Shown here in pieces: positions 37,494 through 64,000 of a stretch of 64,000 nucleotides of DNA. The DNA comes from Flavobacterium tyrosinilyticum. Lineage in GTDB: Bacteria > Bacteroidota > Bacteroidia > Flavobacteriales > Flavobacteriaceae. How positions within the stretch are numbered: the first letter of the stretch is position 1; each line of letters starts with the position of its first letter. The notes beneath the pieces were generated by a model. It had not been told where the DNA came from and searched no databases. It saw only the letters and a list, made by a program, of their open reading frames with translations. The stretch spans positions 868,001-932,000 of the forward strand of contig NZ_JAMOKG010000003.1 of the NCBI RefSeq assembly GCF_023656565.1, written 5' to 3'. The position numbers and the translations under genes were made by a program.

Positions 37494-37627
37494 CAGGTTT
37501 TTGAGACCCGTCGACTAACCAATTCGTCCAACCGAAACGTGTTCGGTGCAGGATTCGAACCTGCATAAACATTCTATTACTCTACCAACTGAGTTACCAC
37601 ATTACTGTGGATGGGAATCGAACCCAC
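37494..37627 (-). ncRNA. Tandem, circularly permuted tRNA-like RNA
   Basis: Reading the minus strand: T arm 1 (37627-37611, GTGGG-TTCGATT-CCCAT), then CCACA-GTAA-TGTGG (37610-37597), a hairpin closed by a GNRA-type tetraloop. Next come TA, D arm 1 (37594-37579, ACTC-AGTTGGTA-GAGT), a short AT-rich anticodon-like hairpin, and T arm 2 (37564-37548, GCAGG-TTCGAAT-CCTGC). A second hairpin follows, ACCGAA-CACGT-TTCGGT (37547-37531), then D arm 2 (37528-37513, loop with TTGGTTA) and an anticodon arm (37510-37494, stem CGGGT/ACCTG, loop CTCAAAA, anticodon CAA). Each acceptor 3' strand pairs with the 5' strand that follows it, not with one before it. The order is thus T arm, acceptor, D arm, anticodon arm. 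It lies between operator 37846-37866 and the slipin gene. Confidence 0.75.
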
Positions 37628-37845
37628 GACAAATAGATCGTGTGATAATTTTTTGGAAAACCATCAAAACCTCCAAACCAAGCTGAATAGAAAAACATAA
37701 TACGCTTTCGCGAAAAGTCTGCTACAATGGTGCTATACAGAAACACCCAACAAGGCTTGTTTGATATTTTTAATCAAAGTTTACTTTGATACCATTTCAT
37801 TTTCTAAAGAACGTTTTTGTTTCTTAAACAAAGATTCAAATGATC

Positions 37846-37866
37846 CTGCGCAATTATTCTGCGCAG
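37846..37866. promoter_or_regulatory. Operator site 1 of the island regulon
   Basis: CTGCGCA-ATTATTC-TGCGCAG; with one more base each side the arms are an 8-bp perfect inverted repeat. On the minus strand AATCTTTG follows 9 bases after the arm, the same spacing as at 62163-62183 and 62251-62271, and the next bases (TTTAAGAAA...AACGTTC) also match site 62163. It would control the tRNA-like RNA/slipin transcript. On the plus strand a T-run follows, so a terminator role is the alternative. Confidence 0.65.
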
Positions 37867-37876
37867 GATATTTTTT

Positions 37877-38662
37877 TTAATTAATCCATTCTATAACCGT
37901 CGATAAATAAGCTTCTCTTACTTCATCAAATCGAGTTATGTTCGGAATATGATTTACTTCTAACAAATATTTAGAACCATCTTTTCCAACGATATAATCA
38001 TTTCCAATCATATCCATCTTCAAAGTTTCTTTTATATAAATTGTATCTGCAAGTAAATCTTCATCAACAGGCATAAAACCTGCGTTATCAGGATGAATAG
38101 ATTTTAACCAATCGTCTCCTTCTAATTTAATCTGCCAATAAACATCTCCAATCATCATGATACGAACGGCTTCTCCTTCATAATAAGGTTCAATTGTAGC
38201 CGTAAATTGGCTCTCCCATTCTCCTGTAAAACGATGTTTATTCTCACCGCAATGCCAATTACCCCATTTGGCAACCGTATCATTTGTAGTATTTACAGAA
38301 GCTCCAGCACTTATAAACCCACGAGGTGCACTAAATTTTGAAAGGGATAATGCTTTTACCAGACACGGAATCTTAAATCGGCAATCCAACATTGCTACCG
38401 CATTCGGATAACAGTCTCCTCGCCAAATTGCTAAACCAGTAATAAAATCGAAATCATTATCGTAAATTCCATAATAAACCACTTTATCAACTGGAAGCAT
38501 TCCAACTCCATTGGCTTTTTCCATATAGAGCACTTCATCTTTTACTACGATTTTAGGAATAGACTGATGCCAAATAATATGTCCTGAATAATTGGCTTTT
38601 ATAACATCATATTCTTCTTGTTCAATTCCAACAAGGGCTATTCGGTTGTATAATTCTTTCAT
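37877..38662 (-). CDS. ATP-grasp-fold protein of the RNA-repair cassette
   Basis: A 261-residue protein. The C-terminal block DMIGNDYIVGKDGSKYLLEVNHIPN is the metal/ATP-binding end of an ATP-grasp domain (Glu and Asn in LEVNHIPN), and IEPYYEGEAVRIMMIGD is the preceding central block. The N-terminal 100 residues include FDFITGLAIWRGDCYPNA. It lies 12 bases downstream of an exonuclease gene that is itself 134 bases from an RNA ligase gene, all same strand. ATP-grasp enzymes usually ligate carboxylates to amines, so it might modify a protein or RNA end; its exact reaction is unknown. Confidence 0.7.
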   Translation of the reverse strand: MKELYNRIALVGIEQEEYDVIKANYSGHIIWHQSIPKIVVKDEVLYMEKANGVGMLPVDKVVYYGIYDNDFDFITGLAIWRGDCYPNAVAMLDCRFKIPCLVKALSLSKFSAPRGFISAGASVNTTNDTVAKWGNWHCGENKHRFTGEWESQFTATIEPYYEGEAVRIMMIGDVYWQIKLEGDDWLKSIHPDNAGFMPVDEDLLADTIYIKETLKMDMIGNDYIVGKDGSKYLLEVNHIPNITRFDEVREAYLSTVIEWIN

Positions 38663-38674
38663 TTTTTTAATTTT

Positions 38675-39223
38675 TTATTTCTTTAAAACTTTATACAGCA
38701 ATTTGGCTGCATTGTAAGCATCATCCGCTCCATTATGATTCTCTCCTTCAAAAGATTCTCCTATTAACTCTAGCTCTTTCAATAATCCTTTAGGTTTCTC
38801 CTGAAGGTAAACTAAATTAAAAAGTGTCTTTATATTCAAATAGTCATTTCTAAATGGGTTTTCAATTGCTTTTGATTTACATTCTTGTTCTAATATTTCT
38901 TTATCAAAATCGCCATAACCGGCAAATGTTCTATACTTTGCCGAATATTTGGAATTAATTTTCTTTAATGCTTTCTCAAGAGAAGTTCCTTCTATCTGTA
39001 GTTTTTCATTTGTAATTCCAGTTAATTGGCGACAAAAAGAAGAAACTTGAGAAACTTCTGGTTTGATATAAAAACTTTGTTTATCTTCAATTTTTCCAGA
39101 CGATAATATTAACTTGCATACTCCTATCTCGATAATTTCTCTCTGATTTAAGAGTGTTTCCTCCTTAGATTCCCAGCAAGTTGCTTCAATATCAATCACT
39201 ATAATTTTATCATATAACACCAT
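38675..39223 (-). CDS. DEDDh 3'-5' exonuclease, Eri1-like, second copy
   Basis: A 182-residue protein with ExoI IVIDIEATCW, ExoII FAGYGDFDKEIL and ExoIII HNGADDAYNAA, so the DEDDh set is complete. An upstream in-frame ATG at 39301 would add 26 residues without any counterpart in the other copy (34327-34872). I choose 39223 (MVLYDKII), which makes the two paralogues nearly equal in length. It is placed between the RNA ligase and the ATP-grasp gene, suggesting 3'-end trimming of RNA before or after ligation. Confidence 0.85.
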   Translation of the reverse strand: MVLYDKIIVIDIEATCWESKEETLLNQREIIEIGVCKLILSSGKIEDKQSFYIKPEVSQVSSFCRQLTGITNEKLQIEGTSLEKALKKINSKYSAKYRTFAGYGDFDKEILEQECKSKAIENPFRNDYLNIKTLFNLVYLQEKPKGLLKELELIGESFEGENHNGADDAYNAAKLLYKVLKK

Positions 39224-39357
39224 GATTTCTAAATTCTTAATTATTATTTTTAAATATATAATTTCCTGATATTTTCTTTTTTTTGAAATTGCTGTTCGCA
39301 TCTCATAAAAATACCCGAACTGACGGACTGCTAATCTCTAATAACTCTTTACTATTA

Positions 39358-39930
39358 CTATCCATTAAGCATCACTTCCATTCGTTTAATACCAAAATCT
39401 GATTTTCTTAATTTACACATTCGCTCATCTGAAATGTGATGGAAAACAATACCTTCAATGTCATTCTCTAATAAGAATATTTCTAAATCCTTAAAATCAA
39501 GACTTACAAAATCAAGTATTTCACTTCCGTGTTTTACCAATGTATGTTTCTCAAAATTTTCCGGGTTTCCTTGTACTTTAGGTCCGCATAATTCGTAAGT
39601 TCCGTCAACTTTATTTTCTAATCCATCAAAACCTTCAAAGAAATGTTTATCCTCCGATTTTGAACGATCACATTTTAACCAGTGTGGGTGATGTCCCGAA
39701 ATTGGATCTGCTTCCTGACAAGGAATTGCTCCCAACGGAATTGTTCTTCCTTTTTTAGCATCAAACCTTTTAAATATTTCACCCTCTATAATTGCGACAG
39801 ATGTACCGTCAAATTTTCTGGTTGCAATAGCTTCTCCTTCAAAAACCCATTTGTTTTCAATATTAATTTTATCTATAACCCTTCCTAAATCATTAGGATC
39901 TTTGGCGAATAATGTACTTATCTTTTTCAT
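39358..39930 (-). CDS. ATP-dependent RNA ligase, compact form
   Basis: A 190-residue nucleotidyltransferase-fold ligase. Motif I is K39-F-D-G (RKFDGTSVAI), with the Lys that would be adenylylated. Later blocks are ELCGPKVQGNPENF (central motif), EGIVFHH (motif IV) and KLRKSDFG (motif V). Length equals a bare catalytic domain, resembling the small RNA ligases grouped with the RLIG1/DUF5565 type. It seals 5'-phosphate and 3'-hydroxyl RNA ends with ATP, in contrast to RtcB at 57474-58895, which uses 3'-phosphate/5'-hydroxyl ends. The array of tRNA-like elements starts 28 bases upstream of its start. Confidence 0.85.
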   Translation of the reverse strand: MKKISTLFAKDPNDLGRVIDKINIENKWVFEGEAIATRKFDGTSVAIIEGEIFKRFDAKKGRTIPLGAIPCQEADPISGHHPHWLKCDRSKSEDKHFFEGFDGLENKVDGTYELCGPKVQGNPENFEKHTLVKHGSEILDFVSLDFKDLEIFLLENDIEGIVFHHISDERMCKLRKSDFGIKRMEVMLNG

Positions 39931-39957
39931 TGTATATTTTTTTAAATCTTCATTTTG

Positions 39958-40030
39958 TACAGGAAGAGAGACTCGAACTCTCAGGAAACTGATTCTAAAT
40001 CAGCCGTGTTTACCATTTCACCATTCCTGC
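39958..40030 (-). tRNA. tRNA-like element 1: anticodon TAG (Leu) on a class I body
   Basis: A full 73-nt fold: acceptor GCAGGAA with TTCCTGT (first pair G-U), D arm GTG/CAC, anticodon stem GCTGA/TCAGT with loop TTTAGAA (anticodon TAG), variable loop of only 5 nt, T arm GAGAG-TTCGAGT-CTCTC, A73. The anticodon reads Leu codon CUA, but bacterial tRNA-Leu has a long variable arm, which is absent here. It is therefore unlikely to be an ordinary tRNA-Leu. Confidence 0.75.
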
Positions 40031-40039
40031 ATTTTTTTT

Positions 40040-40262
40040 AAGTTTCTAAGTTGCTGAGATGCTAAGGGACTAAGTTTTTTAAACTTTTAAATCTGAATCT
40101 TAGGAACTCTAAAAACCATTTCATTTGTCTGGGAAGCAGTCCCGATAGCTATCGGGAGAACCTGCGACCTCCCGCATCCAAAGCGGGTAAACAACCTCCG
40201 TTATCTTCCCAGGTCTATTTAAGTAACTTAGAATCTTAGTATCTCAGAAACTTAGAAACTTT
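40040..40262. repeat. Inverted copies of a dispersed repeat flanking tRNA-like element 2
   Basis: AAGTTTCTAAGTTGCTGAGATGCTAAG at 40040-40066 is matched, inverted and with few differences, by 40227-40262 (CTTAGTATCTCAGAAACTTAG inside). The tRNA-like element at 40129-40211 would sit at the tip of a long imperfect hairpin. The same repeat text recurs near 57035-57070. Confidence 0.65.
40129..40211 (-). tRNA. tRNA-like element 2: tRNA-Pro (TGG) with a palindrome inserted in its T arm
   Basis: Acceptor TGGGAAG/CTTCCCA (eight pairs if the flanking C-G is counted), D arm AACG/TGTT, anticodon stem CCCGC/GCGGG with loop TTTGGAT (anticodon TGG), and AGGTCGCAGGTTC as in tRNA-Pro. The T loop then breaks: the palindrome CCCGATAGCTATCGGG (40141-40156) replaces the rest of the loop before CTG. 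The same palindrome occurs at 59221-59236, so a dispersed repeat has invaded or replaced the T loop. The normal D-loop/T-loop elbow cannot form as usual. Confidence 0.7.
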
Positions 40263-40269
40263 AAAAAAG

Positions 40270-40342
40270 CGGCTCATACGGGAGTCGAACCCGTTTCTCC
40301 CGAGAGACAGTCGGGAAGGTTAGCCAGTAACCCCAATGAGCC
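40270..40342 (-). tRNA. tRNA-like element 3: tRNA-Asp (GTC), apparently intact
   Basis: 73 nt: acceptor GGCTCAT/ATGAGCC, D stem GGGT/ACCT, anticodon stem CCCGA/TCGGG with loop CTGTCTC (anticodon GTC), T arm ACGGG-TTCGACT-CCCGT, G73. All stems are paired. CCA is not encoded. It may be an expressed additional tRNA-Asp; its body looks unlike the usual tRNA-Asp of this phylum. Confidence 0.8.
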
Positions 40343-40362
40343 AGTTCCTTCTAGAGAACAAG

Positions 40363-40436
40363 TGATTTTGGAAGGATTCGAACCTTCGACCATCTGCTCC
40401 GTAGGCAGACGCTCTATCCAACTGAGCTACAAAATC
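40363..40436 (-). tRNA. tRNA-like element 4: tRNA-Arg (ACG), apparently intact
   Basis: 74 nt: acceptor GATTTTG/CAAAATC, D arm GCTC/GAGC, anticodon stem TCTGC/GCAGA with loop CTACGGA (anticodon ACG), T arm GAAGG-TTCGAAT-CCTTC, A73. All stems are perfect. The AT-only acceptor is unusual. Anticodon ACG is a known target type of anticodon nucleases such as colicin D, which may matter in a repair island. Confidence 0.85.
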
Positions 40437-40450
40437 ATTTTTTTGGGCAT

Positions 40451-40478
40451 AAAAAAAGCACCTGATCAAAGGTGCTTT
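40451..40478 (-). terminator. Terminator after the 31-codon ORF
   Basis: On the minus strand AAAGCACC and GGTGC pair around TTTGATCA, followed by seven Ts. Confidence 0.75.
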
Positions 40479-40504
40479 ACAAAATTCAACGTGATATAAC
40501 TATC

Positions 40505-40600
40505 CTATTGCCTATATTGATGCACCTGCATTGTCAAACGTCCAAGATCGAATCTTGCGTTTAGTGGTAATCCGTATGATATTTTATTTTGTAAAGCCAT
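40505..40600 (-). CDS. Candidate 31-residue micro-ORF inside the tRNA-like array
   Basis: MALQNKISYGLPLNARFDLG is followed by 11 more residues. It has its own -7 box (40668-40675), a leader hairpin with arms TTGAAAC/GTTTCAA (40639-40657) and a terminator (40451-40478). Within it, CAAGA-TTCGA-TCTTG looks like a decayed T arm, so it could instead be part of a structured RNA of about 200 nt. No family recognised. Confidence 0.35.
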   Translation of the reverse strand: MALQNKISYGLPLNARFDLGRLTMQVHQYRQ

Positions 40601-40667
40601 TTTGTATGCTGTATTATATTTTAAATTCTTGTTATTATTTGAAACGCTGTGTTTCAATTTTGTTTGG

Positions 40668-40675
40668 CAAAGATA
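40668..40675 (-). promoter_or_regulatory. -7 box (TATCTTTG) of the small transcript
   Basis: A perfect TAnnTTTG on the minus strand, 67 bases before the micro-ORF start. The stretch 40676-40979 has no gene; it holds one imperfect hairpin (AGAAATC...GATTTCT near 40760-40795). Confidence 0.5.
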
Positions 40676-40979
40676 ATGTCGAAAAAATCATATTTCCAAA
40701 TATTTTTTAAGATTATTTTTCTGATTATCAATTAGTTATACTAAAAATTAAACCAAAGAAATCCCTGTCCGCAAACTGGTGCAGATTTCTCTTTTTATCA
40801 AATGACTGTTACTCATCAGATTACTTTTCAAGATTATATTTCGCTATTTGTTTTAATCATTAAACATTTTGTCAATTATTTTTTTAGTTTTTTTAGTTAT
40901 GGTTTACTATTCTATCATTTTTATTGTCTTTCTATTCAATTTTATTGTCACAATGAACGAAGTCGAAGTGGCTAAAAAC

Positions 40980-41010
40980 AAAAAAAGCGCCCTACTTTGA
41001 GGACGCTTTT
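40980..41010 (-). terminator. Terminator after the 32-codon ORF
   Basis: AGCGTCCT and AGGGCGCT pair around CAAAGT on the minus strand, with seven Ts following. Confidence 0.75.
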
Positions 41011-41039
41011 CTGTTTTATGATGAGTTTGACTCTAAATT

Positions 41040-41138
41040 TTATATTTTAATTTCATAAAAATACATATTGCATCCTGATACTTTAGCCGGAAGTTCTCCT
41101 GCTAAGTGGTCAAAATATTTTGCGATTGAAAGTGTCAT
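41040..41138 (-). CDS. Candidate 32-residue micro-ORF inside the tRNA-like array
   Basis: MTLSIAKYFDHLAGELPAKV is followed by 12 residues ending YFYEIKI. It has the same arrangement as the ORF at 40505-40600: own -7 box (41168-41175), short leader, strong terminator, about 180-nt transcript. The composition looks protein-like. It may be a small protein of the island or the body of a small RNA. No family recognised. Confidence 0.4.
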   Translation of the reverse strand: MTLSIAKYFDHLAGELPAKVSGCNMYFYEIKI

Positions 41139-41167
41139 ATGTATTTTAGTATATTTAATTATGGCCA

Positions 41168-41175
41168 CAAATGTA
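41168..41175 (-). promoter_or_regulatory. -7 box (TACATTTG) of the second small transcript
   Basis: A perfect TAnnTTTG on the minus strand, 29 bases before the start at 41138. Confidence 0.5.
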
Positions 41176-41330
41176 GTATATTTTGTCATAATTTAAAATG
41201 ATTAATGAAATTAATTTTAACATATTTTTTTAAAAACAACTTAAACGTACTGATATTCAATAGCATACATTTTAAATAAATGGGAACATATATTTTAGGA
41301 ATTTATTACCGCGAAAATGCATAATAAAAA

Positions 41331-41404
41331 ATAGGTGTGCAAGGACTCGAACCTGCATCCTTCTGTTTAGCAAACAGTTGCTTTTCCAATTGAGCTAACA
41401 CCTT
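41331..41404 (-). tRNA. tRNA-like element 5: anticodon GCT (Ser) on a class I body, degenerate T arm
   Basis: Acceptor with six pairs (AGGTGT/ACACCT), D arm GCT/AGC, anticodon stem with four pairs around loop TTGCTAA (anticodon GCT), short variable loop. The T stem is GCAGG against CCTTGC, which needs a bulged base. tRNA-Ser normally has a long variable arm. Probably not a normal translational tRNA. Confidence 0.65.
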
Positions 41405-41491
41405 TGTATTTTTTATTTGCCACGAAGACACGAAGTTTTCTTTTTAAATTTTGAAGCAAAAAAACCTTTGTCACTTTGAAACTTAAAAAAG

Positions 41492-41565
41492 AAAGGTGTG
41501 CCTGGACTCGAACCTGCAACCTCTTACCTGCTGGGTAAACGCTCTTCCAATTGAGCTAACACCTT
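41492..41565 (-). tRNA. tRNA-like element 6: no U33, mispaired T stem
   Basis: Acceptor AAGGTGT/ACACCTT (7 pairs), D arm GCTC/GAGC, anticodon stem TTTAC/GTAAG with loop CCAGCAG. In the standard register the anticodon would be AGC, but position 33 is C, whereas nearly all tRNAs have U. The T stem GCAGG/CCAGGC has an A-A mismatch and an extra base. The sequence is close to elements 5 and 7, showing expansion by duplication. Confidence 0.65.
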
Positions 41566-41686
41566 TATATTTTGTTTGCCACGAAGGCACTAAGACACAA
41601 AGTTTTTTTTTAAAGTTTTGAAGCAAAAATTAAGAAACAAAAACCTTTGTCACTCTGTCTCTTTGAACCTTTGCAACTTTAAAAAA

Positions 41687-41759
41687 AAGGGTGCACCTGG
41701 ACTCGAACCTGTACCTTTCCCAGTGGTGGGGAACGCTCTTCCAATTGAGCTAACACCCT
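41687..41759 (-). tRNA. tRNA-like element 7: no U33, mispaired T stem
   Basis: Acceptor AGGGTGT/GCACCCT, D arm GCTC/GAGC, perfect anticodon stem TTCCC/GGGAA with loop CACCACT (CCA in the anticodon place, but A at position 33). The T stem ACAGG/CCAGGT has the same mismatch-plus-extra-base defect as element 6. The paired anticodon stem with a non-standard loop suggests selection for the fold but not for decoding. Confidence 0.65.
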
Positions 41760-41760
41760 A

Positions 41761-41831
41761 GTGGATAGTTGGGACTCGAACCCAAAACTTTTCCTGTGGG
41801 GGGAATATTTTTCCAATTAAACTACTATCCT
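41761..41831 (-). tRNA. tRNA-like element 8: C-rich anticodon loop without U33
   Basis: Acceptor AGGATAG/CTATCCA (six pairs), AT-only D stem, anticodon hairpin TTCC-CCCCACA-GGAA with no U at position 33 in any register, perfect T arm TTGGG-TTCGAGT-CCCAA. It starts 6 bases after the stop codon of the SDR gene on the same strand, so it is probably part of that transcript. Confidence 0.65.
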
Positions 41832-51581: not shown

Positions 51582-54248
51582 CTAATTGAAATTATTATTT
51601 ATAATTTTTAGTCTTTTCAAATATCTATTGTATATAGGTTTTAGTTCTTTTATTTCGTTTTGTTTTGATAACCATATTAGAACATCATTTTTTTCTCTAT
51701 AATCCTTAGATGTTTTCTTTTTGTATACTTCAAATATTTGAATTGCCACACTTCTAGTAATTCCAGAAGATATTAACTGAATAACTATCGGTTCTTGTGT
51801 TCCTAACTCTAACATTGTTGGTAAACTTAAAGTTAGCCTATATTCTTCTTTTTGATTTTCTGATAGAATCTCTTCCAGCACGTCAGTCAAAACTTTTATA
51901 TATTTTGGCAATAAATGTGTTGTTATAGATGAATTATATCTTATAGTATTATTTATAACTGAATTAACATCTTCTAAACTCTCGGAATCAATCTTATAAG
52001 AGCCTTCTAATTGAGATAAGTATTTTATATTCTGCTTAATAATTTGACCAATTGGCACTCCACTAAGCCATCTCTTGGCCTGCAAACTAACTGATTTAGG
52101 TGTTAACCAACTTTGATTATACTTTGTAAATCCTTCATCAAATAAATTAAATATTTTATCCAATTTATCAATGATATTTACCAATTGCCAGTAAAATGGT
52201 CTATCATATATTGGCATTGATTCTACATGCTCTGCACTTAAAAATTTATTAAAATTACTATTTTTGTTTATTACCCATTCTTTAATATCAACTTTCTTGA
52301 CTAAATCAAATAATTGAATTTGTAATAATGGATCAATTGATGGATTATTATTCAAAACCTTAGTTGGTATAAATAAACCATCAAAACTATTCTTTAAAAT
52401 TTGCATCCCAAGGTCAATTTCTTCTTCAGTAAAATCCTTGCTTTTTAAATACTTTAAAACATAAATATCACCTTTTAAATACTTGTGTCTAAGAAAAATA
52501 GAAATCTGTTGCGCTTTAGTTGTTCTAAATTTATCTTCTTTTACTATTGAAGTTAATGGCAGGCTTAAGTCATTAATATTTAATTCATTTAAAGCATTTG
52601 AAGAAAAGATTTCAATTTCTTTATCATATTCAACATCATAGTAATCATTAGCTTTTAATTTATCTTTATGATTTTCTATATAATAAACTGTTCCATATAA
52701 TGATGAATTTAATCTACCTGCTCTTCCTATTAGATTACCGAATTCAAATCTTGTTAAAGGCGTATCCTTTTTTTTTGGCTCAAATGTAAAAAGATTATTT
52801 GCAGGTAAATTAACCCCTTCTAATAAAGTAGAAGTACAAAACACAGTTAATAATTTTTCATTGATATATAAATCTTCAATTTCTTTTCTAACAATGTCAG
52901 GCAAAGTTCCATGATGATATGCTGTTTTCTTTTTTAAACATTCAATTAAATAATATTTACTATGTATATCTTCTTTTAAAAAATCAATTAATTCTTTTAC
53001 TTCTTCATCTAATTCAAAATCCTGGCTTTTTATCATTGCATATTTAACAGCCCATAACTGTGCATGAAATCCATTGTGCACAAAAACGATATTAAAATCA
53101 TTTGGCGCAATAAAATCAACTAGATGCGCTATTGTGTCACCTTTATTATTTAATTTAGAAAAATCATAGTTAAAATCTTGCTGGAATTTTTGATACTTAC
53201 CTCTCTCTGTTTGTATTTCTACATCAAACTTTGTTTTTATATTATTTTTTAAAGTAACTTTTAATTGAAATACTGGTGACAATTTCGTTCTTACGGTTAA
53301 ACATTCTCGATCAAAAATATCTAAAAATGTTTTTTCTGGATTTTCAATATTTGGACCAGCTGTTATAAATTTTGCTTTTGGGAATTTTAATGAAATTTCA
53401 TTAAAAACATATTCAAAAGTAAGTCCTCTACCCGACACGTCTTCGACACCCTGGATTTCATCAATAAACACTAAATCAATTTCAACTTTACTATTTAATA
53501 ATTTTAAACATCTTTCAGGAGTTAAAATATATAGTTCTTTTTCGAAAATTTCGTTTTCTTCTACAAATGAAGTTTTTACATAAACATTTTCGTTAATTTC
53601 AGATTTGAAATCTTGACTTACTTGGTTTATTAATGCCCTTGAAGGAACAATATAAACAGCTTTATATGAAATAAAAGTTGAAAATTCATTTATCAAAAAT
53701 TGCTTTATAATAAATGATTTACCAGAGGATGTCGGCGCAGAAATGGCAATTTCCGAATTACTACTTAATGAACCCCATAATTCTTTTTGAAAATCTGTTA
53801 TTAAGTATGATTTATTTGAAGCTGAAATAATTTTTTTTTCTCGTTCGAAAAATAATTCATGACTAATGAAATCTCCAAAATCATATTTAGCTCTTAAATC
53901 TACTGGATTATTCTCTTTTTGAAAATATAAATTATCTAAAAATTTTGTAGCTGTTAAATTTCCTAATCTTGAAAATAAAATATAACAGACTTTAAGAATT
54001 TCAATATTCTCTTTATTATTTAAATAAAGAAGAGATGTAAACAACTGAGCTTTTCTTTTATGAATCTGATCTTCGCTACCTGATAAAATTGAAGCTAACC
54101 AAATTGCTTTTTTTAATTCATCTTCTTTTACTTCTACGACCTTAATCGAATTAAAAACATTCGACAATAAAACTAAAGTATATTCATAAATAACTTTATT
54201 TAGTGTTATATGTTCACATGCCTGAATTGTTAAGGAATTATCAATCAT
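51582..54248 (-). CDS. hamB: HamB-like SF2 helicase (Hachiman defence)
   Basis: An 888-residue helicase. The Walker A block is ISAPTSSGKSF (about residue 168), motif II reads FIDEIQG instead of DEAD, motif III is TAGPN, and the second RecA domain has CTSTLLEGVNLPA and motif VI NLIGRAGRL, a Ski2-like set. The gene is visibly more AT-rich than the neighbouring repair genes, which suggests separate transfer. Paired with the upstream nuclease gene (5-base spacing), this fits Hachiman, in which HamB guards and releases the HamA nuclease upon sensing damaged or foreign DNA. The related Abp pair is an alternative name. Confidence 0.82.
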   Translation of the reverse strand: MIDNSLTIQACEHITLNKVIYEYTLVLLSNVFNSIKVVEVKEDELKKAIWLASILSGSEDQIHKRKAQLFTSLLYLNNKENIEILKVCYILFSRLGNLTATKFLDNLYFQKENNPVDLRAKYDFGDFISHELFFEREKKIISASNKSYLITDFQKELWGSLSSNSEIAISAPTSSGKSFIIKQFLINEFSTFISYKAVYIVPSRALINQVSQDFKSEINENVYVKTSFVEENEIFEKELYILTPERCLKLLNSKVEIDLVFIDEIQGVEDVSGRGLTFEYVFNEISLKFPKAKFITAGPNIENPEKTFLDIFDRECLTVRTKLSPVFQLKVTLKNNIKTKFDVEIQTERGKYQKFQQDFNYDFSKLNNKGDTIAHLVDFIAPNDFNIVFVHNGFHAQLWAVKYAMIKSQDFELDEEVKELIDFLKEDIHSKYYLIECLKKKTAYHHGTLPDIVRKEIEDLYINEKLLTVFCTSTLLEGVNLPANNLFTFEPKKKDTPLTRFEFGNLIGRAGRLNSSLYGTVYYIENHKDKLKANDYYDVEYDKEIEIFSSNALNELNINDLSLPLTSIVKEDKFRTTKAQQISIFLRHKYLKGDIYVLKYLKSKDFTEEEIDLGMQILKNSFDGLFIPTKVLNNNPSIDPLLQIQLFDLVKKVDIKEWVINKNSNFNKFLSAEHVESMPIYDRPFYWQLVNIIDKLDKIFNLFDEGFTKYNQSWLTPKSVSLQAKRWLSGVPIGQIIKQNIKYLSQLEGSYKIDSESLEDVNSVINNTIRYNSSITTHLLPKYIKVLTDVLEEILSENQKEEYRLTLSLPTMLELGTQEPIVIQLISSGITRSVAIQIFEVYKKKTSKDYREKNDVLIWLSKQNEIKELKPIYNRYLKRLKIINNNFN

Positions 54249-54253
54249 TTTTT

Positions 54254-55258
54254 TTATATTAGATTATCCATTGTGTCATTAAAATTACTTATACTATTAG
54301 TTGGAATTAAAATAAAATCTAAAAAAACTTTTTCTAACTCTGGAAAGGTTTTGACTTTTTTACCTATACTCTTTAAAGTGTTATTTGCTTTTAATTGAAT
54401 AGTAGAATCAATTAGCTTAGACAATTCATCACTATTCTGTGCTTTCTTCATTAATTCGTCATAACCTGACGTTTCATACATAATTAAAATCGGATGTACC
54501 GCTATTTGCTTTTTAAACAAATCAGATTTTGGATCAAGTCTATCGTATAGTTCATCTATGTCAACTTTATTACCAACAACCTTTTCTATATCTTTCTGGG
54601 CTATAAAAAACTCAAGAGTATTAAAATCTGCTTGTACTTTTGAGTCATAAAATCTATTTATAGATTTCAAAGCATCATCTTTTGCACCCGAATAATCCTT
54701 CCAAATTTTTGACTCCCCAATAAGGTATGCTCTTTCTACTTCTCCGTTTGGTAATGTATAATTTCCCATAAAAATTCCGTCACCGCCTTTAACCTCATCA
54801 TGATAATTAGTTAAGTTCGTTATTTTATGTGCGATCATTTTACAGTTTAGAACTGATTCTACAAGTCCAAATAAAAGTAATTCCCCATATTTACCACTTT
54901 TTGAATCAACACTTTTCTTTTTAAAAAATTGCTTTGCTTCTCTATAGGTTCTCGTAAAAATTATTTTTGTAACTTCCTCATTATGATCAATTTCCGTTGC
55001 CGTTGTATAATCGTTAATTGTTTTAGAAATCTCCCGTTGGATTTGTTTATCTATTTCTTGTTTAGATTTAAAATAATAAGGCAAAATATCAAGTAATGTA
55101 TTTGCTAATGATAAAGAAGTAATAAGTGTTCCGGAAGGTTTTATAGAATATATTCTTACTTTTAATTTATCATTTATTTCTTTAGTAAAATGATGATTAA
55201 ATTCTTTATCTACCCATTTTCGATTAATTGTAATTAAATCACTAAAATTAATAGCCAT
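54254..55258 (-). CDS. hamA: HamA-like DUF1837 nuclease (Hachiman defence)
   Basis: A 334-residue protein with the DUF1837 core: GKYGELLLFGLVES (Glu), VKGGDGIFMG (Asp) and AYLIGESKIWKDYSGA (E-x-K), a PD-(D/E)xK-type nuclease site. In Hachiman this subunit degrades DNA when released by the helicase. The gene is AT-rich like hamB and lies 3 bases downstream of an RlaP-type gene stop, so it could be read from the repair operon's transcript. Distant homology makes a related Abp-type system possible. Confidence 0.8.
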   Translation of the reverse strand: MAINFSDLITINRKWVDKEFNHHFTKEINDKLKVRIYSIKPSGTLITSLSLANTLLDILPYYFKSKQEIDKQIQREISKTINDYTTATEIDHNEEVTKIIFTRTYREAKQFFKKKSVDSKSGKYGELLLFGLVESVLNCKMIAHKITNLTNYHDEVKGGDGIFMGNYTLPNGEVERAYLIGESKIWKDYSGAKDDALKSINRFYDSKVQADFNTLEFFIAQKDIEKVVGNKVDIDELYDRLDPKSDLFKKQIAVHPILIMYETSGYDELMKKAQNSDELSKLIDSTIQLKANNTLKSIGKKVKTFPELEKVFLDFILIPTNSISNFNDTMDNLI

Positions 55259-57473: not shown

Positions 57474-58895
57474 CTAGTCCTCTTTGCTCCCATCATCTGC
57501 CATTCGAACCAGTTTCGGTGTAAACTTGGCAACCACATCTACTAAATCCTGTTGCGCTTCCATAACCTGATTGATATCTTTATAGGCCATTGGAGCTTCG
57601 TCTAGACCCGCACCGATAAGCGTAACACCATGATCTCTCAGGATCGATTTCATTTCAGATTGTGTGATGTTTTTTATGGCCTGAGTTCTGCTCATTTGTC
57701 TTCCTGCTCCATGCGAAGCCGAATTAATGGCGTTCTCCTCGCCTTTTCCTCTCACCAAAAATCCCGGTGCGGTCATACTTCCCGGAATGATTCCCATAAC
57801 GCCTTTTCCGGCTGGAGTTGCTCCTTTTCTATGCACAATCACTTCTTCGCCGTTCCAGATTTCTTTCCAAGCAAAATTATGGTGGTTTTCGACTTTGGCT
57901 AAAATCGTCGCACCCAAAGCGCGTTCCATTTTGTTATGGATAATCTCGTGACAAGCCGAAGCGTAATCTCCCGCCAAATTCATCGCCAGCCAATATTCTT
58001 GTCCTAATTGCGAATTCATATCTAAATACGCTAAGTTTTTTGCCACTTCTGGAAGTTTACATTCGTCTTTGGCGATTCTAGTATAATGTCCCGCAATTGT
58101 GGCTCCCATTCCACGTGAACCGGAATGCGTTAACAAAGCGACGTATTTTCCTTTTGGGATATTCAAAACCGCATCGTTTTGTGCAAATTCCATGATTCCG
58201 AATTCAACAAAGTGATTTCCACCACCCGAAGATCCTAATTGTGACCAAGCTTTATCTTTCAAATTCTTCACAAACGGATTCATATTGAAAGTTTCATTCT
58301 CCAAAACCGCATGATCTGATTTGTACTGACCGTGAAATCCGTGACCTGCTCCAAAAATAGAATTGGCAATTAATTCTTTTTTGAACTTGGCTTCGTTTTC
58401 AAAGTAAAAATCTTCTGGAATATCATAAACCGATAACGCCATTCTACACCCAATATCGACACCAACACCATACGGAATAATGGCATTTTTTGTGGCTAGA
58501 ACCCCGCCAATCGGTAATCCGTAACCTTGATGCGCGTCTGGCATTAAAGCTCCGGCAACCGTCACAGGCAGTTTCATGGCAACTTCCATTTGTTTTCTGG
58601 CTCCGTCTTCGATATGATCTAATCCGTAAGCTGAATACGCATTCGGATTTTCGTTTAAAGCAATGAAATCTTCTGGTTTTTCATTCGATTTCTCGATTAA
58701 AGCAACAGCCAGTTTGCTGAAGATTTTATCGTCTATATAATTCTCCGGAGTTTCTAAGACGTTTTTGAAATTTGCAATCATTTCGTCTCTTGTGAATCCG
58801 TTTCTTTTGCTGTTTATTTTTAAGGCAATCCCTATTATTTTTCCTTCTGGGAATCCTAATTCTAATATATCTGTACCGTTTATTTGTGTTTTCAT
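57474..58895 (-). CDS. rtcB: RNA 3'-phosphate/5'-hydroxyl ligase RtcB
   Basis: A 473-residue GTP- and Mn-dependent ligase. Conserved blocks in order are MPDAHQGYGLPIGGVLA, GVDIGCRMALS (metal Cys), SGGGNHFVEFG (metal His), LTHSGSRGMG, VIHRKGATPAGKG, GSMTAPGFLVRGKG and NSASHGAGRQMSRT (the His that becomes guanylylated). It seals tRNA halves left by endonucleases that leave cyclic or 3'-phosphate ends. A start at 58970 would put operator site 2 and the -7 box inside the coding region, so I use 58895 (MKTQINGTD). Archease is not seen in the window. Confidence 0.93.
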   Translation of the reverse strand: MKTQINGTDILELGFPEGKIIGIALKINSKRNGFTRDEMIANFKNVLETPENYIDDKIFSKLAVALIEKSNEKPEDFIALNENPNAYSAYGLDHIEDGARKQMEVAMKLPVTVAGALMPDAHQGYGLPIGGVLATKNAIIPYGVGVDIGCRMALSVYDIPEDFYFENEAKFKKELIANSIFGAGHGFHGQYKSDHAVLENETFNMNPFVKNLKDKAWSQLGSSGGGNHFVEFGIMEFAQNDAVLNIPKGKYVALLTHSGSRGMGATIAGHYTRIAKDECKLPEVAKNLAYLDMNSQLGQEYWLAMNLAGDYASACHEIIHNKMERALGATILAKVENHHNFAWKEIWNGEEVIVHRKGATPAGKGVMGIIPGSMTAPGFLVRGKGEENAINSASHGAGRQMSRTQAIKNITQSEMKSILRDHGVTLIGAGLDEAPMAYKDINQVMEAQQDLVDVVAKFTPKLVRMADDGSKED

Positions 58896-58917: not shown

Positions 58918-58954
58918 CAAAGGTTAATTGCTACTGCGCAATTATTTTGCGTAG
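58918..58954 (-). promoter_or_regulatory. Promoter and operator site 2, upstream of rtcB
   Basis: The operator CTGCGCA-ATTATTT-TGCGTAG lies at 58934-58954. On the minus strand AACCTTTG (58925-58918) follows 8 bases later, and the rtcB ATG is 22 bases beyond. The -7 box departs from TAnnTTTG at its first base, as expected for a promoter that needs an activator. Confidence 0.7.
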
Positions 58955-58970
58955 ATACATTTAATTCCAA

Positions 58971-59415: not shown

Positions 59416-61656
59416 CTAATCTACCAACAACTGTGTAACAACCGCTGGATTCATGGCCCATTGCGCTGTGTAAACCTCATCGGCAATTTCATTTTCGGTG
59501 ATGGTCAAACCTTGAGCTTCCGCTTTAAGCTGTAACAAACTACCAATATTCAATTTGCTGTTTAGTTTTGACAATAACGCCTGAACGCCTTTGAAATCCA
59601 ATCCACCTACGACCTGACCTCCGAAAGTCATCTCTAACCAAACGATTTCTCTTTTGGCTACATCCAACACTCCAAAAACCAAACCTTTGGCAACATTTTG
59701 CGTCACACGAACCTGATGATCTACACACGACGGATCGTATGCTACACCAGTTTTCTCCGAAATTTTCATCGGGTGTTTGCTGCTCATCCAACCTACAACT
59801 AAATTTGGCGTAATACTTCCGTTGCTGTACGCGTTGCAAGTAAAAGTTACAAATTTCGCTTTGGCTTTCGCCAATTCGTCGATATTAATGTTGATATATT
59901 CGGCTGTTCCAATTTTATTTGGAATGCTTCGGATATCTCCACTATGCTGACAACCTGTTGTGGTTAATCGGCTGAAAGAACAAATATCGGCTTTATCTTC
60001 ATAAGCGATATGACAGCTCAAATCCATATCTAAATGCTGTGCTGGCAAATCTTTACCCCATTGCATGAACAATCGCACTTCGTTTCCTTCAATTGGGAAA
60101 CGTGTTCCCATTAAAGCAACTGGCAAATCCTGAACCGTTTCGCTTCGATCTCCTATAGAAACCGGAATGTTAAACAATTGCGGATCGATATAGATGGTTT
60201 TGTTGGTATTCGCAATTTTTGCAAATCGTTTTTTCATAGCCAAAAGACACAATTCTTCGATTTGGTTTTTCATTGCTTCCAACTGAAAATCTTCGTACAA
60301 TTTCAACAAACCGTTAGGTTCAATTCGTTTGTTTGTTCCTCCCAAAGGTTTCACACTTCTCTGCATGTTTTTATCAAAATAATTTTGAGCATACATGTTT
60401 AAAGTAAACACCAATCGAGCTGGAACTTTATCGATGATTTCTTCAAAATGGGCAATCGTTTCCTCTGCTCCAAACCATAGCATGTTCGAAAATAACGAAC
60501 GTGCAAACAATCCTGGACGCTGTTTCAATAAAGCAAATGTTTTATCGGCATCAAATTTTAATCTTGATGAATCTACTTTGCTTTGCCAAACATCGTACAC
60601 TTGGTTGTAGAATACATCCATTAAAAAGTTCAATTTCTCAAACCCTTTTCTTTTGCTGTATTCTGCCAAACGCAAAGCTCGGATAAAACGAACCCACATT
60701 CCTCTTTTTGGATGCATGGTTTCGCACATAGCTTCAACGTCCATGCTCATATTATTCAACCAATTTGCCACCATTAAACATTCTTTTCGAGAATATTTTA
60801 GTTTCAAATCTTTTTGAGATGCAATTCTTGCCTGAACGCTTGTATCTAAAACATTATGGAAATGCTGTGCATTTTTTGATGTTCTTTTGATAATCGTTTT
60901 TGGCTCAATAATTTGGAGCATTCCTGTGTTTTTATACCACAAGTATCGTAAAATATCTGTTGGTGTTTTTAGAAACTGAGACGCTTCCTCTTCTTTACCA
61001 TTTTCAATCAAAAGATCAATCACCAGCATTAAAGTTTCCTTCATTGCCACTTCTGTTTTTGGCAAAGGCAAATACTGCATCGCCATTTTTAAACTATCTA
61101 CCTGAGTAGCGTCTAAAGCGGTTTTAGATTGTAATAATGATATATAGAAATCATTCAAATCTTTTTCTGTCCATAATTCAAGCATTTTCAATTTGCTTCC
61201 TTGACCGATATTTTCCAGTTTTCCAAATTCAAACGGAGTTCCGCAGAACGGACAACCGTTGTATCTTTCTAATGGAAAAGTATTATCAGGGATAATATGT
61301 CCACATTGTAAAGTCGTTCCGTTTTTTGTTTTAAAAACGTTTCCAAAATACGTGATAATATGATCTATAACAGATTCATTAGTTGGAACATTCCATTCTT
61401 TCACCAATGGCGTCCAGTTTTTATCTGTTCCTAGCACTTCTCTTAAAACTTCTAAAACCTCGATTTTATATTTTGGGTTTACGTTGTTTAAAGCATGAAG
61501 CAATGATTCAGAAAATGTAAATCCAAGTTTTGAAACATTGGCTAACAAAACTGATGTTGTTCCTGATAAATTTTTAATATCATTCGTAATCATTTCTGAT
61601 GGAATGAAAATTGCATTTTGACGTAAACTGATTTTTAATAATTCTTTTGTTTTCAT
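59416..61656 (-). CDS. RING-like zinc finger and TerD-domain fusion protein
   Basis: A 746-residue protein. An N-terminal helical region is followed by a RING/treble-clef-like finger (LQCGHIIP near residue 117 and GCPFCGTP near 134-137). Helical repeats run through 150-480, and a TerD-like beta domain near 540-650 contains DMDLSCHIAYEDKADIC, GCQHSGDI and KAKFVTFTCNAYS, the calcium-site pattern of TerD. The C-terminal 80 residues are helical. It resembles, from memory, proteins annotated as MXAN_6230/SCO0854-family RING proteins. TerD proteins belong to membrane-linked stress and phage-resistance systems. It is preceded by a leader carrying tRNA-Lys, an orphan tRNA half and a repeated motif. 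Confidence 0.75.
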   Translation of the reverse strand: MKTKELLKISLRQNAIFIPSEMITNDIKNLSGTTSVLLANVSKLGFTFSESLLHALNNVNPKYKIEVLEVLREVLGTDKNWTPLVKEWNVPTNESVIDHIITYFGNVFKTKNGTTLQCGHIIPDNTFPLERYNGCPFCGTPFEFGKLENIGQGSKLKMLELWTEKDLNDFYISLLQSKTALDATQVDSLKMAMQYLPLPKTEVAMKETLMLVIDLLIENGKEEEASQFLKTPTDILRYLWYKNTGMLQIIEPKTIIKRTSKNAQHFHNVLDTSVQARIASQKDLKLKYSRKECLMVANWLNNMSMDVEAMCETMHPKRGMWVRFIRALRLAEYSKRKGFEKLNFLMDVFYNQVYDVWQSKVDSSRLKFDADKTFALLKQRPGLFARSLFSNMLWFGAEETIAHFEEIIDKVPARLVFTLNMYAQNYFDKNMQRSVKPLGGTNKRIEPNGLLKLYEDFQLEAMKNQIEELCLLAMKKRFAKIANTNKTIYIDPQLFNIPVSIGDRSETVQDLPVALMGTRFPIEGNEVRLFMQWGKDLPAQHLDMDLSCHIAYEDKADICSFSRLTTTGCQHSGDIRSIPNKIGTAEYININIDELAKAKAKFVTFTCNAYSNGSITPNLVVGWMSSKHPMKISEKTGVAYDPSCVDHQVRVTQNVAKGLVFGVLDVAKREIVWLEMTFGGQVVGGLDFKGVQALLSKLNSKLNIGSLLQLKAEAQGLTITENEIADEVYTAQWAMNPAVVTQLLVD

Positions 61657-61834
61657 TTTTTTAATTTTTAAAATTTAGATAATTGCGTTTCTGAGTTCTA
61701 CCTAAAAGATTTTTGAAGTAAGAAACACTTGACCTGAAATTGGAGTGTAATGAATTAGCTGATTCAAATTGGTTTGTGGGTTTCCCCGAGAAGTAAGCTA
61801 ATTTTGACCCTCTTTTTTTTAATGATGATTTTAA

Positions 61835-61875
61835 AACTATGTTCGGATTCGAACCGAAAGTAGCCGTGTTCTGAA
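61835..61875 (-). ncRNA. Orphan tRNA 3' half
   Basis: From the anticodon loop on: AGAA, stem strand CACGG, CTACT, T arm TTCGG-TTCGAAT-CCGAA (perfect) and acceptor strand CATAGTT. A matching 5' half (acceptor AACTATG, D arm, CCGTG) is not found upstream; instead a GGTCAA-N7-TTACTTC copy occupies that place. It could be a decayed tRNA or one half of a split tRNA. Confidence 0.55.
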
Positions 61876-61900
61876 GTAAGTTTTAATTGACCATTAATTG

Positions 61901-62018
61901 TGGAGCAGGTGGGATTCGAACCCACGACCCGGACATTAAAAGTGTAAGAAGTAAATTTTGATTGACCTTTGATGGATAATTTCAAAACTACCTGCTCTAA
62001 CCGCTGAGCTACTGCCCC
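61901..62018 (-). tRNA. tRNA-Lys (TTT) interrupted by a 45-nt intron in the anticodon stem
   Basis: The 5' exon (62018-61991) holds acceptor GGGGCAG, TA, D arm GCTC-AGCGGTTA-GAGC, A and GG (positions 27-28). The 45-nt insert is 61990-61946. The 3' exon (61945-61901) holds ACA, loop CTTTTAA, TGTCC, GGGTC, T arm GTGGG-TTCGAAT-CCCAC, CTGCTCC and A. When the insert is removed, GGACA pairs perfectly with TGTCC, the loop is the canonical Lys loop, and the tRNA is exactly 73 nt. The insert has no room for a group I intron and carries one GGTCAA-N7-TTACTTC motif. RtcB and an RNA ligase are encoded nearby. Confidence 0.85.
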
Positions 62019-62162
62019 AATTATGATTATAAAATAAAAAGGTAATGGTATAAGTGGTACATTGGAAAGTGTTTTCGAAGTAACTCAAACTTGACCTGTT
62101 TTATTCTTTTTTTATTTCTATGAACGTTTGTTTTTATTTCTTGAACAAAGATTTCAAAACTA

Positions 62163-62183
62163 GTACGCAGTTATTTTGCGTAG
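62163..62183. promoter_or_regulatory. Operator site 3, upstream of the tRNA-Lys/RING-TerD unit
   Basis: GTACGCA-GTTATTT-TGCGTAG. On the minus strand AATCTTTG follows 9 bases after the arm, the same spacing as at sites 1 and 4, and the next 30 bases closely match those after site 1. Confidence 0.7.
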
Positions 62184-62250
62184 TTAAATCTTTGTTCAAT
62201 TTTTCAGAAATACTATTTGTTTTATTTCCTGAGCAAAGATTTCAAAACTA

Positions 62251-62293
62251 CTACGCAATTATTTTGCGCAGTAAAAAAAGAATTTTAAATTTG
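62251..62293. promoter_or_regulatory. Operator site 4 with divergent promoters
   Basis: CTACGCA-ATTATTT-TGCGCAG at 62251-62271. Toward the minus strand AATCTTTG follows after 9 bases. Toward the plus strand TAAATTTG (62286-62293) follows after 14 bases, 13 bases before the HD gene. One site can thus serve both directions. Confidence 0.7.
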
Positions 62294-62921: not shown

Positions 62922-63128
62922 AAATTGAATCTCGCAAAGTCGCAAAGTCGCAAAGTTTTTTTGTTTCACGCAGATTTTACAGATTTGAGCAGATCTAAAA
63001 AGATTTTATTTTTAAAATAATCTGCTGAATCTGCCTAAATCATTTTTAATCTGCGTGAAACAAATCTTAATAATCATTGAATTAAAAAACTTTGCGCCTT
63101 CGCGCCTTTGTGGCAAAACAACACAAAA
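62922..63128. repeat. Dispersed repeat between HD and WYL genes
   Basis: Inverted vocabulary: TTTCACGCAGATTTTACAG at the left against TTTAATCTGCGTGAAACAAA at the right, plus CGCAAAGTCGCAAAG and CTTTGCGCCTTCGCG. It forms a long imperfect hairpin. No gene is seen. Confidence 0.7.
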
Positions 63129-64000
63129 ATGTCACAAAACAAAAACGCCCTAATCCGATATAAAACCATCGATAAATGTCTGCAGAACAAATATAGGCAA
63201 TGGACACTCGAAGATTTAATCGAATGCTGTTCTGAAGCTTTATTTGAATATGAAGGAAGACAAAATCCAATTAGCAAGCGAACCATTCAGATGGATATTC
63301 AGCTGATGCGAAGTGAGAAATTGGGTTACAATGCCCCAATCGTGGTTTACGATAAAAAGTATTATAAATATGAAGACGAAGATTTTTCGATAACCGATAT
63401 TCCTCTGACGGAAACAGACATGAATGTTTTGACAGAAACGGTTTCGATGTTGAAACAGTTTAAAGATTTCTCTTTATTTAATGATGTTTCGGATATTTTA
63501 CAGCGACTGGAAGATAAAATCTACGCCGAAAAATCACATACCAAACCTGTTATTTATCTGGATAAAAACGAAAAACTAAAAGGGCTTCATTATCTAGACG
63601 AAATTTATCAGGCGATTATCAAGAAAATGGTTCTCATTATTACTTATAAATCTTTTAAATCAAGAGAAGAAACGAAATTCCATTTTCATCCTTTTATACT
63701 AAAAGAATTTAATAATCGCTGGTTTTTAATCGGAAAGAAAAAAGCATCACAGCCTATTACCAATTTGGCTTTGGACAGAATCATTTCTATTGATTACGAT
63801 TTTAATCTTCCTTATTTAGAAGAAGATTTTGACGCTGACATTTATTACAAAGATGTAATTGGTGTTACAGTAAATTCGGGATTGAATGCAAGACGAATTG
63901 AATTATGGGTCGATGCTTCGAATGCCCCTTATGTACTCACTAAACCTTTGCACACGTCTCAGCGATTAATTAAGGAAAATGAAGACGGGAGTGTTATTAT
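63129..64000 (+). CDS. WYL-domain transcriptional regulator, 3' end cut off by the window edge
   Basis: At least 290 residues, open to the window end. The N-terminal helix-turn-helix (KNALIRYKTIDKCLQNKYRQ, SKRTIQMDIQLMRSEK) is of the DeoR-like winged type. The WYL domain follows (KKMVLIITYKSF, FHPFILKEFNNRWFLIGKKK). WYL domains sense nucleic acids or nucleotides and regulate defence and repair loci. It is the best candidate in the window to bind the four palindromic operators. Its start follows the dispersed repeat directly, with no clear -7 box. Confidence 0.88.
   Translation, partial: MSQNKNALIRYKTIDKCLQNKYRQWTLEDLIECCSEALFEYEGRQNPISKRTIQMDIQLMRSEKLGYNAPIVVYDKKYYKYEDEDFSITDIPLTETDMNVLTETVSMLKQFKDFSLFNDVSDILQRLEDKIYAEKSHTKPVIYLDKNEKLKGLHYLDEIYQAIIKKMVLIITYKSFKSREETKFHFHPFILKEFNNRWFLIGKKKASQPITNLALDRIISIDYDFNLPYLEEDFDADIYYKDVIGVTVNSGLNARRIELWVDASNAPYVLTKPLHTSQRLIKENEDGSVI

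Follow-up and report, generated by a model that had tools for sequence, protein, structure and literature searches.

RNA-repair systems of bacteria were described by Burroughs and Aravind in 2016 and are said to include a scaffold together with a 'novel tRNA-like molecule'. A further case is the Y RNA YrlA, in which a basal stem for Rsr is joined to a domain resembling the D, T and acceptor arms of a tRNA, and which, according to the sections cited here, is encoded in some rtc operons (PMC8394870, PMC7790460). The rtc operon of S. Typhimurium is, in the cited passages, controlled by tRNA fragments through RtcR (PMC7790460).

The locus described here lies in a stretch of 64,000 nucleotides of Flavobacterium tyrosinilyticum (the window), in which a first-pass annotation had read a tRNA-Lys(UUU) split by a 45-nt non-group-I intron next to rtcB. 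We propose that this 'tRNA with an intron' is probably one module of a conserved hairpin/tRNA-mimic RNA that precedes a Ro60-like gene, in which case it would be a new Y RNA counterpart and not a tRNA that is spliced. As in YrlA with its partner Rsr/Ro60, a non-coding RNA is located at an rtc cluster, a stem is joined to a tRNA-arm-like domain, and a protein with a putative TROVE-like ring is encoded next to it. In contrast to YrlA, several units stand before one gene, the units occur in two chain topologies, the protein carries RING-like and TerD parts instead of a vWA domain, and the binding is a putative one. The systems of Burroughs and Aravind share with the present one a tRNA-like RNA beside repair genes, as well as an SPFH/Band-7 gene, which at one related locus (L063:80-1174) is situated directly 5' of a two-unit leader. 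What is shared with S. Typhimurium, as far as the cited passages go, is that the repair genes are expected to answer tRNA damage (PMC7790460); the control there uses a CARF/sigma-54 activator, whereas here we find a WYL gene, a palindrome and an RNA leader. The coordinates of all features are collected in Table 1.

The split tRNA was confirmed as a structure. The Rfam tRNA model gives a single match with an insert at 61901-62018 (minus strand, 48.5 bits against a gathering value of 29), and when the 45 nt at 61946-61990 are removed, a 73-nt cloverleaf is obtained with a GGACA/TGTCC anticodon stem, a CTTTTAA loop and a GGGGCAG/CTGCTCC acceptor stem; the predicted fold of this spliced form is a cloverleaf as well. 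ARAGORN, run without introns, did not report a tRNA at 61901-62018. The insert was also correctly recognised as something other than a group I intron: like the group I introns of bacterial tRNAs it sits in the anticodon arm, but it is 45 nt long and has no group I match in Rfam. With the tRNA introns of archaea and eukaryotes and with circularly permuted tRNA genes the locus shares the interruption of the anticodon arm and the permuted tRNA pieces. It differs from the archaeal and eukaryotic introns in that no bulge-helix-bulge was seen on inspection of the exon junctions (the junction is an 8-bp stem with unequal flanks), in that no EndA-type endonuclease was found in the window's genome (the control search matched 4 of 14 genomes, all archaea), and in that the hairpin also occurs outside the tRNA. 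In the minimum-energy fold of the unspliced RNA the acceptor stem, the D arm and the T arm are present and the hairpin takes the anticodon position. Adding the anticodon stem to this structure makes it 7.5 kcal/mol less stable in the energy model used; the stem could nevertheless also form in the unspliced RNA, with the hairpin bulged out. The 45-nt insert is probably not a tRNA intron.

The originally annotated extent of 61901-62018 proved too small, as the whole element spans about 61678-62096. The motif GGTCAA-N7-TTACTTC is present here in five copies (61715-62096) and nowhere else in the window, the expected number being 0.01. On the minus strand the copies start at 62096, 61967 (within the insert), 61892, 61809 and 61734. 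In each copy the N7 and the next T are complementary to a second segment, with one mismatch in unit 1, and this segment is followed by N-ATTAYC or a close variant. The pairing partner is found downstream, past a variable cargo, in four copies, and upstream in the tRNA copy; in other words, the hairpin of the tRNA copy is circularly permuted. We refer to the recurring part, i.e. GGUCAA, the 8-bp stem P1 and UACUUC together with N-AUUAYC, as the handle; its AYC can pair with GGU. The chain of a standard unit comes in at the GGU/AYC end, and its cargo is in the loop past UACUUC, while in the tRNA unit a short loop caps the GGU/AYC end and the chain enters through the tRNA. The cargo is on the UACUUC side of the handle in both chain orders, and the handle occupies the anticodon-arm position of the tRNA-like fold. 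A reading of GGTCAA-N7-TTACTTC as a promoter or operator was dropped, since the N7 is complementary to the second segment in all five window units.

Table 1. Features of the leader and of the neighbouring genes, in window coordinates.
Feature	Position	Strand	Match
WYL-domain regulator, divergent, leaves the window	63108..63998	+	PF13280, 40.4 bits
Palindrome ACTGCGCAAAATAATTGCGTAGT, then TAGTTTTG	62250..62272	-	
Palindrome, copy 2, one mismatch, then TAGTTTTG	62162..62184	-	
Unit 1, standard, GGTCAA-P1-TACTTC-X-P1'-CATTACC, one P1 mismatch	62041..62096	-	RNA model R1, G000:C3:930041-930096, E 3.4e-9
tRNA-like domain, 5' part (acceptor, D arm, first 2 anticodon-stem bases)	61991..62018	-	
Unit 2, circularly permuted hairpin, core of the 'intron', P1'-A-ATTATC-loop-GGTCAA-P1-TACTTC	61948..61989	-	
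tRNA-like domain, 3' part (remaining anticodon arm, variable loop, T arm, acceptor)	61901..61945	-	
Unit 3, standard; cargo a T-arm-like hairpin (TTCGGTTCGAATCCGAA), a fuller tRNA elbow in some relatives	61824..61892	-	
Unit 4, standard; cargo of small hairpins	61746..61809	-	
Unit 5, standard; ends 21 nt 5' of the start codon of the 746-aa gene	61678..61734	-	RNA model R1, G000:C3:929678-929734, E 8.6e-13
Gene of the 746-aa protein: RING-like zinc site, TROVE(Ro60)-like helical ring (~150-500), TerD domain (~520-695)	59416..61656	-	
Palindrome copy 5' of rtcB, one mismatch	58933..58955	-	
rtcB RNA ligase	57474..58892	-	PF01139, 280 bits

The conservation of the handle was investigated through the pairing of P1. 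Among the matches listed, 251 clustered units carried 101 distinct P1 sequences, and 95% of their P1 pairs were standard, as compared with 58% (maximum 62%) when the partners were shuffled. These 251 units (200 standard and 51 permuted) were taken from 269 distinct units among the matches listed by setting 18 unclustered ones aside; they were counted only if at least 6 of the 8 pairs could form, and the covariation sets were pre-filtered for pairing as well. The covariation score was 0.737 for 43 standard units (0.203 when shuffled) and 0.513 for 28 permuted units (0.236 when shuffled). Neither value was reached by any of 500 shuffles, and the covariation was lost when the P1 partner was slid. 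Pairs changed on both sides, counted in the 43-unit standard set, were not above the shuffles (403/500). The 28 and 43 sequences of the underlying alignments (A3 and A4) were hand-picked from 32 and 73 candidates plus the window, and in A3 the row of the window is off by one base (61949-61990, where 61948-61989 would be correct). A further count started from the protein: in 25 loci of the window's genus, the strong ones among 28 matches, 117 of 119 exact motifs could form 7 or more of the 8 P1 pairs by an AUUAYC-like flank, whereas random 8-mers judged by the same flank rule did so in 167 of 2380 cases. Note that the constant letters of the motif are partly set by the search patterns. When folded singly, the units were modestly more stable than shuffles (z from -0.6 to -2.4), unit 1 showed a partial rearrangement of P1, and AYC/GGU pairing was seen in some units only; the case for the handle thus rests on covariation.

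The RNA model R1 and the protein profile matched the same 11 of 390 Bacteroidota genomes, namely 11 of the 24 genomes of the window's genus and none of the 366 others. The motif scans comprised at least 118 stretches of genome contigs and at least 120 viral stretches. In the genome-contig set a homologue of the 746-aa protein follows the paired units in 56 of 65 loci among the matches listed. The homologue is missing from nine loci, of which L219, L220, L257, L284 and L286 hit the locus edge and L254, L290, L306 and L316 do not. The paired units in L254, L290 and L316 may be chance matches, and L306 has two paired units (L306:6259-6430) with the 746-aa gene absent from the next 1.5 kb. The MAG of L306 holds another such region at L219. 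The taxa with units by the gene, among the matches listed, are Flavobacterium, Fluviicola, Hymenobacter, Chitinophaga, Emticicia, Xanthocytophaga, Capnocytophaga, Bacteroides, Segatella, Prevotella, Microscilla, the Saprospiraceae and a Verrucomicrobiales MAG. The locus is also present in F. johnsoniae strain CI04 (L312). The number of motif copies per genome varies from 1 to 7. Matches to a relaxed motif in genomes of the genus were mostly single and, where the cluster is missing, about as frequent as the reversed control; the counts are therefore restricted to units that are clustered or stem-paired.

The genus Hymenobacter was surveyed in 120 genomes, of which 9 matched the permuted-unit model, 17 the protein and 8 both. 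The permuted-unit match is missing in 9 of the 17 protein-bearing genomes, and one genome (G703) has a permuted unit on a small contig and no protein match. With two short fragments left out, the 17 protein matches of the genus gave 15 loci, and all 15 have at least one upstream unit, L386 only via one-mismatch motifs. A plasmid locus (L345) and L378 seem to stem from one Hymenobacter record, so the two were counted once. Two plasmids that were reached through the protein, from Hymenobacter volaticus and Segatella hominis, bear an interrupted tRNA as well as units; at the Prevotella F0039 locus there is a one-mismatch motif only. Upstream units were not found at the distant homologues in Variovorax, Streptomyces and a faecal phage. 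The Variovorax homologue (L348, 25% identity) is encoded near rtcR, which ties the protein family to RNA repair without the handle RNA. A search of 12 genomes with the permuted-hairpin model placed 15 of 15 matches at the repair leader; this search is not exhaustive, because the long-loop permuted unit of L216 was missed by the model.

The tRNA-like part is likewise maintained in relatives. Of 20 related leaders picked by hand, 17 contain insert-bearing tRNAs according to Rfam. Among the matches listed, 48 of the 51 permuted units could be parsed as tRNA-like, with seven acceptor pairs in 46 and five T-stem pairs in 47 of them; the parser takes the best-pairing segment, and three of the 51 units remained unparsed. 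Permuted units in such folds occur in 8 named genera and in further MAGs (again among the matches listed). Many parsed copies have in common an acceptor ending in GCAG, then TAGCTCA, and the T loop TTCGAAT. The anticodon drifts while the tRNA body is kept: the clean cases read Lys-TTT, Arg-TCT, Asp-GTC, Arg-CCT and Gly-TCC, i.e. the lysine anticodon is not conserved among the orthologues, as it would be in a functional tRNA-Lys(UUU). Three or more tRNA-Lys(TTT) genes that are intact and identical to one another are also present in the genome of the window, and their body differs from that of the interrupted tRNA. Both observations speak against the suggestion that the locus keeps a reserve tRNA-Lys.

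The junction between handle and tRNA is variable. The insertion point is at 28/29, at 29/30 or, as judged by eye, within the loop. In 26 of 46 permuted-unit loci among the matches listed, the insert splits a perfect 5-bp anticodon stem 2+3 or 3+2, in the variants GGACA/TGTCC, GGACG/CGTCC, GGGCA/TGCCC and ATGGC/GCCAT; the script covered these two kinds of split, and 20 of the 46 loci gave neither. The left/right spacers are 1/2 in most loci of the same genus, 1/1 in one L054 copy, 2/1 in L055, L225 and L267, and 3/1 in L281. No single cut rule relative to the hairpin was found, either by eye in the 48 parsed tRNAs or by script in the 2+3 and 3+2 splits. Two Bacteroides copies (L279 and L311) seem to be without D and anticodon arms. 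Other units can also resemble parts of a tRNA: unit 3 of several relatives reads, by eye, as a tRNA elbow with the T arm, a capped hairpin and the D-loop in L043 and L225, and in the other order (D-loop, hairpin, T arm) in L216, L265, L306 and L317.

Two side observations concern the number of tRNA genes. A single leader region of Microscilla sp. (L310:115-1273) contains four insert-bearing tRNA-like genes. At L317, L225 and L061 several tRNA genes are located at most about 7 kb from the repair leader, which suggests that tRNA supply and repair go together.

The structure of the 746-aa protein was predicted with AlphaFold2 (pLDDT 87, pTM 0.85). Residues 523-687 of the model match TerD (3ibz, Z 12.4), and Ro60 (1yvr) is found at rank 7 for the whole model (Z 6.9, 309 residues). 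For the ring domain alone (150-500, pLDDT 90.5) the seven best structural rows are all TROVE/Rsr/Ro60, with Z of 7.3-9.2 over 251-271 residues, a modest level for a helical-repeat fold; below them follows an unrelated row (Z 7.0, 102 residues), and most lower rows cover about 100 residues. Foldseek returned nothing at E 0.001 for the whole model or the ring domain, and Pfam TROVE (PF05731) was not matched when 35 members were scanned at E up to 1, with 17 families listed. The resemblance is thus a similarity of fold at modest Z, and kinship is unproven. The idea of a Ro protein had been raised from the RNA context before the fold search. A vWA domain is absent from the C-terminal part, where the TerD fold takes its place, and no TROVE gene was found in the window's genome. 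With 125 bits against a curated cut-off of 600, the protein is related to the MXAN_6230/SCO0854 RING family (NF041916), not a member by that rule.

On the side of the RNA, no handle match to the Y RNA models (YrlA RF02553; Y_RNA) was obtained in Rfam, at the gathering value or at E up to 10, and a weak YrlA match (E 0.074) fell on the tRNA-like stretch of L317. The tRNA-like domain that is characteristic of a Y RNA, with D-loop, T-arm and acceptor elements, is present beside the stem. The tie between the handle and the Ro-like protein is one of genetic linkage.

The RNA-repair link of the first-pass annotation holds, given that the tRNA precedes an rtc-type cluster and that its insert is a conserved element. 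The cluster comprises rtcB and two RlaP genes (252.5 and 87.1 bits); the ATG start of rtcB is a chosen one, its reading frame extending to a TTG at 58970. The tRNA is not next to rtcB, as the gene of the 746-aa protein intervenes. Upstream of the leader there are two copies of a palindrome (ACTRCGCAAAATAAYTGCGYAGT), and a weaker copy with 3 mismatches is found at 37845. The first of these palindromes together with TAGTTTTG is a probable regulated promoter of the leader, and the WYL regulator is a candidate for binding the palindrome. Within the same window a Hachiman defence pair (51582-55258, minus strand; PADLOC, HamB 1005 bits, HamA 241 bits) lies between the two RlaP nucleotidyltransferases of the rtcB cluster. 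A second island (37540-41831, minus strand) consists of tRNA genes and of tRNA-like genes with poor scores; an RNase T exonuclease and an RLIG1-type RNA ligase are encoded with them, and the weak palindrome copy at 37845 is located there.

The distance between the last unit and the start codon was determined in 52 loci among the matches listed, which are those of 67 gene-bearing loci that had a clustered unit once the units had been deduplicated. In 37 of them the last unit is 11-34 nt 5' of the start codon; these printed values are one too high, so that the median of 23 over all 52 loci corresponds to 22 nt. Since identical units were counted once, some distances are overstated, and 13 of the 52 loci print 72-226 nt, partly because a duplicate last unit was dropped. 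The distance between unit and start codon suggests autoregulation, unlike in YrlA. A rival explanation would be that autogenous control is the only function. The handles would then serve the 746-aa protein, or some other regulator, as operators, and the tRNA-like pieces would be chance captures. This would agree with the position of the last unit in most loci and with the Prevotellaceae and Chitinophaga loci L247, L252, L256, L278 and L301, in which a single motif stands 67-92 nt 5' of the start and the permuted unit is absent under the handle pattern. We nevertheless find it rather unlikely, given tRNA-like folds in 8 named genera and further MAGs and the acceptor and T stems that are complete in nearly all parsed copies (46 and 47 of 48, among the matches listed).

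Protein-dependent splicing, in which the 45-nt insert is excised and RtcB joins the halves into a working tRNA-Lys, was one of the two functions suggested for this locus. Removal of the insert does give a perfect, cloverleaf-forming tRNA, the anticodon stem is costly in the unspliced fold, and RtcB is encoded downstream. Splicing is kept as a rival because the split stem is perfect, variants included, in 26 of the 46 loci (among the matches listed). On the sequence evidence we consider it unlikely all the same: four other units of the leader carry the hairpin without a whole tRNA, the insertion point and the spacers vary with no consistent cut rule, EndA was not found in the genome, and all 15 permuted-model matches in the 12 genomes are confined to the leader. 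Moreover, the anticodon drifts among relatives, the two Bacteroides copies seem to have no D and anticodon arms, and the stem could form unspliced with the hairpin bulged out.

Small ribozymes are known in which a fixed core is circularly permuted, and the ends left by their cleavage are RtcB substrates. The handle could then be a small self-cleaving element, RtcB would rejoin the cyclic-phosphate and 5'-OH ends, and the leader would report ligase activity. The permuted core of our units would be in accordance with this, but the Rfam matches include no ribozyme, a single ribozyme makes one cut, and the RNA is tied to the Ro-like gene in 56 of 65 paired-unit loci (among the matches listed), which makes this explanation quite improbable. 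A decayed tRNA with a mobile insert, to which the variable motif copy number between genomes might point, is scarcely credible in view of the strong covariation, the maintenance across several genera and the absence of permuted-model matches away from the leader in 12 genomes.

The reading that we prefer, with a probability of about 0.6, is that a Ro-like protein binds Y-RNA-like handles and tRNA mimics and controls its own leader; the binding and the regulation are what we infer. It is proposed on the basis of the architecture that the locus shares with the Y RNAs of rtc operons, namely a handle, a tRNA-like cargo, a Ro-like protein, RtcB and RlaP. The region of handles and cargoes would be transcribed as a long 5' leader of the 746-aa gene. 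The handle would be the binding site of the encoded Ro60-like scaffold with its TROVE-like ring and TerD domain, in the way that Y RNAs partner Ro60/Rsr. The tRNA-like, elbow-like and anticodon-loop-like cargoes may imitate tRNA and so either recruit tRNA-handling enzymes or be cut like an attacked tRNA. The protein, when bound to the last unit about 22 nt 5' of the start codon, would control its own translation, and free or damaged tRNA, or cleavage of the leader, would raise the expression of the repair genes.

A tRNA-like RNA tied to an RNA-repair scaffold is of an already known kind, to which the Y RNA and the 'novel tRNA-like molecule' reported by Burroughs and Aravind belong. What may be new is the consensus of the handle together with its permutation, the arrangement of units in an array, and a partner with RING, TROVE-like and TerD parts; no description of these was found in the literature searched. 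It is a tentative further step, which we put forward as possible rather than probable, to regard the leader as a new modular RNA class: tRNA mimics, displayed as an array on permutable handles to which a Ro-like RING-TROVE-TerD protein binds, might serve as a damage sensor that turns the repair genes on when nucleases cut the mimics or damaged tRNAs compete for the protein.

A practical consequence is that intron-tolerant tRNA searches will call such modules introns of bacterial tRNAs. If our reading is true, the locus would represent a second Ro/Y-RNA-like system with an RNA of unrelated sequence, it would show that one RNA architecture can be built in two chain orders related by circular permutation, and it would provide a direct tie between tRNA mimicry and the control of RNA repair in bacteria.
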